NCBI RefSeq assembly: GCF_004684245.1
Contig: NZ_CP038452.1
Span: 62,001 to 126,000 of the forward strand
DNA: 64,000 nt
Direction: 5' to 3'
DNA from: Thermus caldilimi
Lineage (GTDB): Bacteria > Deinococcota > Deinococci > Deinococcales > Thermaceae
Shown here: piece after piece, positions 18,875-22,701 of the stretch
How the letters are laid out: each line of letters opens with the position of its first letter
Position numbering within the stretch: the first letter of the stretch is position 1
Translations under genes and position numbers: made by a program
Notes under the pieces: model-generated
The model's database searches: none
What the model saw: only the letters and a program-made list of their open reading frames with translations
What the model was told of the DNA's origin: nothing

Positions 18875-20514
<1,640 letters not shown>

Positions 20515-20517
20515 GGC

Positions 20518-21930
20518 TTACCTCCCGATCCCAAACACTTCCCGGGCGTCGGCGATCTCGCCCGCCACCGCCGCCGCCGCCACCATAAGGGGGCTCATGA
20601 GCACCGTGCGCCCCCTGGGGCTTCCCATGCGCCCCTTGTAGTTGCGGTTGGAGGAGCTGGCGGCCAGTTCGTCCCCTTCGAGGCGGTCCGGGTTCATGGC
20701 CAGGCACATGGAGCACCCGGGGTTCCGCCACTCAAACCCCGCTTCCTGGAAAATCTCGGCGATGCCCTCTTCCTCCGCCTTCTTGGCCACCCACTCCGAG
20801 CCCGGCACCACCAGGGCCCGCACCCCCTTCTTCACCTTGTGGCCCTTGAGGAAGCGGGCTACCTCGCGAAGGTCGGAAAGCCTGGCGTTGGTACAGCTTC
20901 CGATGAAGGCCACCTGGATGGGCACCCCCTTGATGGGCTGCCCCGGCCTCAGGCCCATGTAGGCCAGGGCTTCCTCGGCCACGGGGCGCTCTTCAAGGGA
21001 AAGCTCCTCCAAAAGGGGAATCCTCCCGTCTATGGGCACCGCCTGCCCCGGGTTGATGCCCCAGGTGACCGTGGGGGGGATGTCCTCCGCCCGGAAGGTG
21101 ACCACGTCGTCATAGTGGGCGTCCGGATCCGAAGCAAAGCTCCGCCAGCGCCGCTTGGCCTCCTCCCACTCGGCTCCCTTGGGGCTATAGTGGCGGCCTT
21201 CCAGGTAGGCGAAGGTGGTTTCGTCGGGGTTCACATACCCGATGCGGGCCCCGCCCTCGATGGACATGTTGCAAAGGGTCATGCGGCTTTCCATGTCCAT
21301 GGCCTCCACCGCGCTTCCCCCGTACTCGTAGGCGTAGCCCAACCCTCCCTTCACCCCCAGGTGGCGGATGATGTGGAGGATCACGTCCTTGGCGTAGACC
21401 CCGGGAGAAAGCTTCCCTTCGATGTTGATGCGCCGCACCTTCAGCTTCTGGGCCGCCAGGGTCTGGGTGGCGAGGACGTCCCGCACCTGGCTGGTGCCGA
21501 TGCCGAAGGCCACGGCCCCGAAGGCCCCGTGGGTGGAGGTGTGGGAATCCCCGCAGGCGATGGTCATGCCGGGTTGGGTTAAGCCCAGCTGGGGGCCGAT
21601 CACGTGCACGATGCCCTGGTTCCCGCTTCCCAGGTCAAAGAAGGTTATCCCATGCTCCCTTGTGTTTTGCCTAAGGGCCTCCAGCATGCTCTGGGCCAGA
21701 GGATCCTGGAAGGGCTCGGTGCGGTCGTGGGTGGGGACGATGTGGTCCACGGTGGCGAAGGTGCGGTGGGGGTAGCGTACCTTAAGGCCGAGGTCCCTCA
21801 GCATCCCGAAGGCTTGGGGACTGGTGACCTCGTGCAGGAGGTGGAGGTCTATGAAAAGCTGGCTTTGCCCGCTTCGGAGCTTCCTGACCTCGTGCGCCTC
21901 CCAGACTTTCTCGTAAAGCGTTTTTCCCAT
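20518..21930 (-). CDS. leuC: 3-isopropylmalate dehydratase large subunit
   Basis: The 470-residue aconitase-family protein isomerises 2- to 3-isopropylmalate using a [4Fe-4S] cluster. Cluster cysteines are in IGSCTNAR and [21 protein letters not shown] and [12 protein letters not shown] are active-site signatures. The gene starts just after an intrinsic-terminator-like attenuator and a Leu-rich leader peptide, with GGGAGGG (21933-21939) as ribosome binding site. It heads leuC-leuD-leuB-uma2-uma2-SDR-ilvD. Confidence 0.97.
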
Positions 21931-21941
21931 GCTCCCTCCCT

Positions 21942-21973
21942 TACAAAAATCCCCCGGGTTTTGGGCCCGGGGG
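21942..21973 (-). terminator. Attenuator (intrinsic terminator) in the leuC leader
   Basis: Read on the minus strand, CCCCCGGG (21973-21966) pairs perfectly with CCCGGGGG (21958-21951) and is followed by ATTTTTGT, a bona fide terminator located before leuC. An alternative pairing is available: CTTCCCCCGGG (21976-21966) can instead pair with CCCGG...GGGAAG (22004-21986), which lies in the 3' arm of the leader-peptide hairpin (21990-22015). That gives the mutually exclusive 1:2, 2:3, 3:4 stems of transcription attenuation. Confidence 0.8.
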
Positions 21974-21990
21974 AAGGCAACGGGGCTTCC

Positions 21991-22038
21991 CTAAGCCGGG
22001 CCCGCCCGGCCTAGGTCTAGCAGGATGCCCCGCCGCAT
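21991..22038 (-). CDS. leu operon leader peptide (15 residues)
   Basis: ATG at 22038 opens a 15-codon frame MRRGILLDLGRAGPA. It has Ile-Leu-Leu-Asp-Leu in the middle, written ATC CTG CTA GAC CTA with two CTA codons that are rare in this genome. The following codons form the hairpin CCTAGGCCGGG/CCCGGCTTAGG (22015-21990). A ribosome starved for leucyl-tRNA at codons 6-9 would keep stem 1:2 open and favour the antiterminator. The ATG sits about 8 nt after the -10, so the message is leaderless or nearly so. Function is inferred from this architecture. Confidence 0.75.
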   Translation of the reverse strand: MRRGILLDLGRAGPA

Positions 22039-22046
22039 TGCCCTAT

Positions 22047-22075
22047 AGCCTACGCTGCCTTTGCCTTAGGGTCAA
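22047..22075 (-). promoter_or_regulatory. Promoter of the leu operon leader
   Basis: On the minus strand TTGACC (22075-22070) and TAGGCT (22052-22047) are separated by 17 bp, placing the start of transcription at or just before the leader-peptide ATG at 22038. It overlaps the upstream region of the divergent coiled-coil gene. Confidence 0.7.
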
Positions 22076-22098
22076 GGGCTATGCTAGCCTGAAGGCAG

Positions 22099-22569
22099 AT
22101 GACCACCGAGGAGCGGCTTTACAAGCTGGAGGGAATCGTGGAAGGGGTGATGGCCACCCTTCCGGAGCGGATTACCTCCCTGGAAAACCGCATGGACCTC
22201 CTGCGCCAGGAGATCAAGGGCGACATAGTGGGCTTGCGCCAAGAGCTTAAGGGCGAGGTGGTGGCCTTGCGCCAGGAATTCAAGGCGGAGATGGCCGCCT
22301 TACGCCAGGAGTTCAAGGCGGACATGGCCGCCTTACGCCAGGAGCTCAAGGGAGACATGGCCACCCTTCGCCAGGAGCTCAAGGGAGACATGGCCGCCTT
22401 ACGTCAGGAGCTCGAGGGCAATATGGCCTCTTTACGCCAAGAGCTCAAGGAGGACATGGTTTCCTTGCGCCAGGAGCTCAAGGGGGACATCAATACCGCC
22501 TTAAACCGCCTTATGCTCTACTTCAGCGCCCTGGCGGTGATCCTGGCCCTCCTCACCCTTTGGCGCTAG
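22099..22569 (+). CDS. Hendecad-repeat coiled-coil protein with C-terminal membrane anchor
   Basis: A 156-residue protein whose residues about 33-133 consist of nine 11-residue repeats of the form LRQELKGDMAA. The 11-residue period predicts a long right-handed or straight coiled coil. The N-terminal part (ERLYKLEGIVEGVMATLPERI) is also helical. Residues about 137-155 (LMLYFSALAVILALLTLW) form one transmembrane helix, so the coil would project from the membrane. It resembles DUF1640-like proteins, whose job is unclear. At the DNA level the repeat is 33 bp (about 22197-22490), so copy number could vary by recombination. Confidence 0.75.
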   Translation: MTTEERLYKLEGIVEGVMATLPERITSLENRMDLLRQEIKGDIVGLRQELKGEVVALRQEFKAEMAALRQEFKADMAALRQELKGDMATLRQELKGDMAALRQELEGNMASLRQELKEDMVSLRQELKGDINTALNRLMLYFSALAVILALLTLWR

Positions 22570-22614: not shown

Positions 22615-22701
22615 GCCGGGGTGGCGGAATTGGTAGACGCGCACGATTCAGGGTCGTGTGTCCTTGCGGACGTGCGGGTTCAAGTCCCGCCCCCGGCACC
22701 A
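22615..22701 (+). tRNA. tRNA-Leu (anticodon CAG)
   Basis: An 87-nt class II tRNA. Acceptor arms GCCGGGG (22615-22621) and CCCCGGC (22691-22697) pair fully and the CCA is encoded (22699-22701). The D-loop has GGTAGAC and the T-arm GGGTTCAAGTCCC. The anticodon CAG (22649-22651) sits in the 7-nt loop TTCAGGG, and there is a long variable arm around TGTCCTTGCGGACG. It decodes CTG, the dominant Leu codon here. It has its own promoter and a terminator. Confidence 0.97.

Follow-up and report, generated by a model that had tools for sequence, protein, structure and literature searches.

The leader region upstream of the leuCDB operon very probably acts as a ribosome-mediated, leucine-responsive transcription attenuator. 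It lies in the window analysed here, a 64,000-nucleotide stretch covering positions 62001-126000 of a Thermus chromosome of 2.45 Mb. A first-pass annotation of this DNA had already read the region as a leucine attenuator, and the comparison with relatives supports it: the promoter, a leucine-containing peptide, a putative antiterminator and a terminator are conserved as a unit before leuC throughout the Thermaceae. The reading draws on promoter spacing, the short open reading frame (ORF), its codon bias, the predicted competing helices and their conservation, all of which were established from the sequence itself and by comparison.

Promoter and short reading frame upstream of leuCDB

The elements of the locus in the window are as follows:
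22070..22075, minus strand, -35 element TTGACC; TTGAC lies at the same place in nearly all relatives
22047..22052, minus strand, -10 element TAGGCT (TANNNT type), 17 bp from the -35; TANNNT lies 7-10 nt 5' of an ATG in nearly all relatives
21991..22038, minus strand, leader peptide ORF MRRGILLDLGRAGPA, predicted leaderless, stop TAG (21993-21991); ORF conserved in Thermaceae
22027..22036, minus strand, segment A, codons 2-4, pairing with 21986-21977
22018..22020, minus strand, codon 7 CTA (Leu), the foremost candidate for the control codon, left unpaired in the predicted fold; conserved in Thermus leaders, CTA being enriched
22012..22014, minus strand, codon 9 CTA (Leu), pairing with the UAG stop in the leader hairpin; invariant in 26 Thermus leaders
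21990..22015, minus strand, leader hairpin P1 (22015-22005 with 22000-21990), 11 bp; compensatory GC to AU change at one pair
21986..22003, minus strand, predicted antiterminator 5' strand (22003-21996 and 21991-21986)
21977..21986, minus strand, segment D, partner of codons 2-4 in the codons 2-4 helix
21963..21976, minus strand, predicted antiterminator 3' strand, a competing fold overlapping the terminator 5' arm
21945..21974, minus strand, intrinsic terminator, hairpin 21974-21950 followed by UUUUU (21949-21945), from scan and fold
21932..21940, minus strand, Shine-Dalgarno region of leuC, GGGAGGGAG
20518..21930, minus strand, leuC, 3-isopropylmalate dehydratase large subunit, first gene of leuC-leuD-leuB; NCBIfam TIGR00170 over cut-off
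19909..20514, minus strand, leuD; NCBIfam TIGR00171
18875..19912, minus strand, leuB; NCBIfam TIGR00169

The layout on the minus strand reads TTGACC-17-TAGGCT-8-ATG with the ATG at 22038, in agreement with the 17-bp-spaced promoter proposed previously (TTGACC at 22075-22070, TAGGCT at 22052-22047). The 15-codon peptide described in the first-pass annotation, with three leucines, one isoleucine and rare CTA codons, is likewise present at 22038-21991 (M R R G I L L D L G R A G P A stop), its Leu codons being CTG, CTA and CTA and its single Ile codon ATC. No sequence resembling a ribosome-binding site fits into the gap between the -10 element and the ATG, and this spacing is kept across the order. 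If leaderless is taken to mean a 5' UTR of 0-5 nt, with the start judged from the spacing, an ATG conserved 7-10 nt after the -10 element in nearly all regions supports a leader peptide that would begin at or within ~2 nt of the predicted transcript start, i.e. a leaderless one.

Scans of the window by themselves are not significant: the leu promoter scores below the cutoff of the promoter scan, and the terminator scan found 3 terminators against 3.7 expected. At the Rfam gathering threshold the only match in the window is a tRNA, with none to a curated leader family and, upstream of leuC, none to a curated RNA family such as a T-box or riboswitch. The decisive evidence for the putative leu leader unit is comparative.

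The leu promoter has a close neighbour on the opposite strand. A divergent ORF at 22099-22569 (plus strand, 156 aa), with LRQELKGDMAALRQE-like repeats that probably form a coiled coil and with no NCBIfam match, is served by a leaderless-type promoter of its own (TTGCCT, TAGCCT, ATG; window 22061-22101), and the two promoters interlock, the leu -35 element lying between the -35 and -10 of the divergent one. A tRNA-Leu gene (anticodon CAG) lies ~600 bp from the leu leader at 22615-22701 (plus strand), just 5' of a tryptophanyl-tRNA synthetase-like ORF.

Conservation of the leader and its CTA codons

Comparison of leuC upstream regions from 50 Thermaceae genomes and from named Thermus, Meiothermus and Calidithermus contigs gave 53 distinct regions, 49 from Thermaceae and four from a neighbouring family. 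A leader ORF of 12-17 codons is present in 52 of the 53 (48 of 49 among Thermaceae); where two starts were candidates we chose the one with the higher Leu fraction, a small bias, since most regions had one candidate. The leuC upstream region of L129 (Meiothermus group) has no leader ORF. Wherever the leader occurs its ATG lies 7-10 nt after TANNNT, with TTGAC or TTGTC as the -35 element, the exception being the Thermus-like L107, in which the ORF is present and TANNNT is missing at the expected place. Other families of the order carry the leader in 33 of the 40 regions fetched, and of the seven without it two are truncated at the end of a contig, and in three leuC is distant. The leuC leader is a short ORF that contains codons for leucine and stands before the operon for the biosynthesis of this amino acid.

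Each of the 75 distinct leuC leader ORFs has at least one CTA, and CTA makes up 126 of their 206 Leu codons, compared with 78 of 2126 (3.7%) in 37 window genes and 3 of 63 in control leaders of the same genus that are not expected to sense leucine (hcs, aspS2); in ilvB leaders it accounts for 75 of 123. The corresponding binomial value, <1e-100, is not a true probability, the leaders being related. Leaders of different families share little sequence, yet all have CTA. General richness in A/T at the third base was considered and rejected as a cause: only 20.5% of the other leader codons end in A/T, and NNA codons for Gly, Ala, Pro and Val stay rare.

We also weighed whether CTA is a by-product of RNA structure, namely the complement of the UAG stop that closes the leader hairpin, as the pairing of codon 9 CUA with this stop in 26 of 26 Thermus leaders might suggest. 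This explanation is already contradicted and is most unlikely, because all 18 leaders that end in TGA or TAA instead retain CTA, and codon 7 is conserved although it is unpaired; pairing with UAG does not explain the codon. These comparisons lend strong support to a role of CTA in control, and CUA is the control codon of the leu attenuator of Salmonella (PMC1183508).

Several leaders are poor in Leu codons, some having a single CTA, and in nine distinct leaders CTA is the sole Leu codon. Such leaders lend themselves to a different reading, in which the ORF is translated but serves mainly as a sensor of one CUA-reading tRNA-Leu, or as a slow-codon timer, rather than as a general leucine sensor, a single CUA being the whole sensor in many relatives. 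The presence of CTA in every leader fits this, as does family f5, many of whose leaders place one CTA at a similar position behind an RRRL motif. Thermus and many others, however, have two or three Leu codons with a neighbouring Ile or Val, and selective charging theory accommodates CUA within ordinary leucine sensing (PMC1183508), so that we regard the narrower reading as possible but rather doubtful and prefer a general response to leucine. Many leuC leaders of f5 (L158-L172, L188, L189, L024) have in common an RRRL[RA]x[IV]Q-like stretch, which precedes the CTA by ~ten codons.

In Meiothermus and Calidithermus (L011, L013, L109-L131) a palindrome, TTTGGTATACCAAA, sits between the -35 and -10 elements of the leuC promoter and is a possible operator. 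It could be taken to mean that leu control is exerted by a DNA-binding regulator at the promoter, the terminator being constitutive or only trimming read-through. The palindrome is not seen in the window promoter, and such a regulator would leave the conserved leader ORF, the CTA bias and the competing helices unexplained; we consider it improbable next to attenuation.

Competing RNA folds and the proposed switch

The leader hairpin (11 bp, 21990-22015), the terminator with its U-tract and the pairing of the 3' arm of the first with the 5' arm of the second, all put forward in the first-pass annotation, are recovered in the predicted folds. The terminator hairpin has 9 bp, of which 8 are GC, and a loop of 7, followed by U5. 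The antiterminator core would pair GGGCCCGG (22003-21996) with CCGGGCCC (21970-21963), and pairing of GGGAAG (21991-21986) with CTTCCC (21976-21971) would lengthen it. In addition we find a helix absent from the earlier annotation, formed between codons 2-4 (22036-22027) and 21986-21977, with the leader hairpin inside it.

The 97-nt leader is predicted to fold with -61.4 kcal/mol, compared with -47.1 +/- 3.8 for shuffled sequences (z -3.75, 0 of 200). Across 26 distinct Thermus leaders standard pairs fill 98.6% of cells in the leader hairpin, 86.0% in the codons 2-4 helix and 89.8% in the antiterminator, with changes on both sides at one, three and three pairs, respectively. The covariation scores were equalled by 7, 2 and 4 of 500 shuffles in the same order, a modest support for these predicted helices, as the sequences are similar and the shuffles ignore relatedness.

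An intrinsic terminator between the leader ORF and the first gene is present in the window and in most relatives; the terminator scan of relatives gave a poor U-tract or no terminator in L012, L106, L110, L164 and L169. The position of this terminator also bears on the suggestion that the leader is a translational device, acting by reinitiation or by coupling to leuC, and not a transcriptional one. Leader genes near a main gene have been proposed to boost reinitiation, also in Deinococcus-Thermus, but the distances reported there peak at 10-11 nt (PMC4833913), whereas the leader stop lies ~60 nt before the leuC ATG with the U5 terminator between them, making a translational role very improbable.

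In support of a transcriptional switch, the predicted folds have a competing antiterminator that a ribosome stalled at the control codons exposes. Masking a ribosome footprint at codons 7-9 yields the antiterminator in a transcript without the terminator 3' arm, and masking through the stop region yields the terminator. For the complete RNA at 37 C the terminator is predicted to be more stable than the antiterminator even when a stalled ribosome is masked, and we therefore assume a kinetic, cotranscriptional switch. At 70 C the antiterminator is the best fold of the complete RNA with a ribosome at codon 7 or 8, and the terminator wins with a ribosome at codon 9. The gain in antiterminator stability for the window sequence alone was not above that of shuffled upstream sequence (z -0.68, 23 of 100). 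Mean z values were -1.7 for Thermus, -1.9 for other Thermaceae, -1.3 for family f4 and -1.0 for f5 plus one f2; support for this gain would thus come from the family of leaders, and it is weaker outside Thermaceae.

From these features we infer the transcription start point, termination, stalling and leucine response of the following model. RNA polymerase would start at or within ~2 nt of the leader ATG, and a ribosome would initiate the 15-codon peptide in leaderless fashion. When Leu-tRNA is plentiful, above all the CUA-reading isoacceptor, the ribosome would reach the UAG stop and cover the 3' arm of the leader hairpin, so that no antiterminator forms and the terminator folds, giving a transcript that ends ~15 nt before leuC. 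If charged tRNA-Leu runs short, stalling at codons 7-9 would leave the ribosome covering codons 2-4 together with the 5' arm of the leader hairpin; the 3' arm, now free, could capture the terminator 5' arm and allow polymerase to enter leuC. If no ribosome has loaded, codons 2-4 would pair with 21986-21977 over the leader hairpin, protecting the terminator and also closing the leaderless start region, which would make the default state off.

The mechanism is of a known kind. The leu attenuator of Salmonella and E. coli (leuL) likewise has a competing antiterminator and an intrinsic terminator before the leu structural genes; its peptide is longer than that of the Thermus leader and is preceded by a 5' leader with a ribosome binding site. 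In contrast to leuL, the Thermus peptide is predicted to be leaderless, the operon, leuCDB, does not include leuA, and a match to an Rfam curated leader is lacking. Common to both is a Leu leader peptide with CUA control codons (PMC1183508).

The first-pass annotation had considered a leaderless leader peptide in an attenuator notable. Our analysis also predicts a leaderless peptide, but its novelty is reduced by the ~39% of genes predicted to be leaderless in Deinococcus-Thermus genomes (PMC3160421) and by precedents for leaderless leader peptides in Corynebacterium and mycobacteria. In C. glutamicum ilvBNC and C. diphtheriae ilvB the first codon of the leader peptide lies at the transcript start or one nucleotide away, and, as in Thermus, a first hairpin covers the start region as an anti-antiterminator (PMC11857589, PMC5784534). 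These attenuators belong to another phylum and another gene and have no evident sequence in common with the Thermus leuC leader, in which, unlike Corynebacterium ilvB, a second hairpin lies inside the codons 2-4 helix. Mycobacterial cysteine-responsive attenuators also place a leaderless short ORF before an amino acid operon, to judge from the title of Canestrari et al. 2020 as cited in PMC13236596, but these ORFs are poly-Cys and are without conserved terminator hairpins (PMC1262725). The LEU element of Actinobacteria, an RNA element upstream of leuA, likewise contains leucine codons, but it has a conserved pseudoknot and is thought not to act by classical attenuation (PMC1262725). Leaderless genes of D. 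radiodurans have the -10 element directly before the start codon (~6-7 bp), as found here; reports on leaderless transcripts in Deinococcus-Thermus concern ordinary genes, and PMC12340547, which describes this spacing, is without leader peptides or attenuation.

Predicted leaderless leaders elsewhere in the genome

A search of the genome for the pattern TTGAC, 18-19 nt, TANNNT, 6-10 nt, ATG found 19 places, against none in the reversed control, and relaxing the -35 to TTGTC or TTGCC added almost only ordinary genes. The resulting list of leaders is incomplete and a lower bound, and six of the 19 places are leader-plus-gene units of amino acid metabolism, belonging to leuC and to the following genes:
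G000:C1:164506-164670 (L141), ilvB (Leu/Val/Ile), leader MRFGLVLSLGLVLIVGPAGGRV, LxLVLIV, with three CTA and one GTA, plus terminator
G000:C1:42807-42680 (L139), minus strand, DAHP synthase, leader MRTYGRYFGFYYPAGGALRSA, YFGFYY, with Phe/Tyr codons, plus terminator
G000:C1:1161421-1161560 (L149), aspartate-tRNA(Asn) ligase (non-discriminating), leader MRLPQGNDA, plus hairpin
G000:C1:1988429-1988567 (L152), homocitrate synthase (lysine pathway), leader MLALEKKLGRRGVG, KK, invariant AAA AAA
G000:C1:2141311-2141230 (L153), minus strand, lysJ, leader MAARGKT, very short, plus terminator

For the first four of these the leader codons match the pathway as judged from the sequences, and almost all of 27 Thermus genomes retain them. 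The ilvB leader of L220 is apparently broken by a frame change, and the homocitrate synthase leader of L308 was overlooked by the script. The YFGFYYPAGGALR core of the DAHP synthase leader is widespread in Thermus, and in the homocitrate synthase leader AAA accounts for 36 of 36 Lys codons, compared with 14% in window genes. The ligase leaders end in Asn-Asn or Asn-Asp in most Thermus (NDA in this genome, Asn-Asn in most others), which suggests Asn-dependent attenuation; for a ligase that charges tRNA(Asn) with Asp, this would amount to direct feedback from the supply of Asn-tRNA. The ligase frame of this genome is apparently lost after ~residue 225 (L149:1641-2450), whether by sequencing error or in reality. 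A second genomic DNA match of the leu leader, at C1:2141227, is not a copy of it and corresponds to the terminator region of the separate lysJ leader.

We regard it as an even question whether leaderless leader-peptide attenuation is a general mode of amino acid sensing in Thermus and the rest of its order. In that case a single compact layout (promoter, ATG immediately after the -10 element, a peptide of 7-36 codons, terminator) would serve leuC, ilvB, DAHP synthase, homocitrate synthase, lysJ and, via Asn codons, aspartate-tRNA(Asn) ligase; the leu version would respond chiefly to the CUA-reading tRNA, in some lineages through a single CUA. The literature searched contained no paper on leader-peptide attenuation in Thermus or on its suite of leaderless leaders, an earlier mention being possible; a 1998 paper in Gene on T. 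thermophilus leuC, leuD and leuB reportedly may have commented on the leuC upstream region. We found no description of the order-wide CTA conservation, the one-codon leaders or the leaderless leader suite, which should be of interest to specialists.

If these readings hold, classical attenuation, with leaderless initiation, would extend to a phylum from which we have found no description of it. The natural series of leaders, extending down to one CUA, would then allow tests of the minimum number of control codons in an attenuator and of the reasons why leu leaders favour CUA in unrelated bacteria. As the ribosomes and the polymerase of Thermus are standard models in structural work, coupled transcription and translation on a leaderless switch would be directly open to study.

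Two further ORFs of similar type were seen in this genome. At G000:C1:724119 (L144) the magnesium transporter gene mgtE is preceded by a hairpin and by MLGALPSSPRP, a predicted leaderless ORF containing three Pro codons, and at G000:C1:1078661-1078624 (minus strand, L324) a leaderless-type ORF, MRVRTPFAYKWRHGRYRPS, lies upstream of a trpB-like gene.
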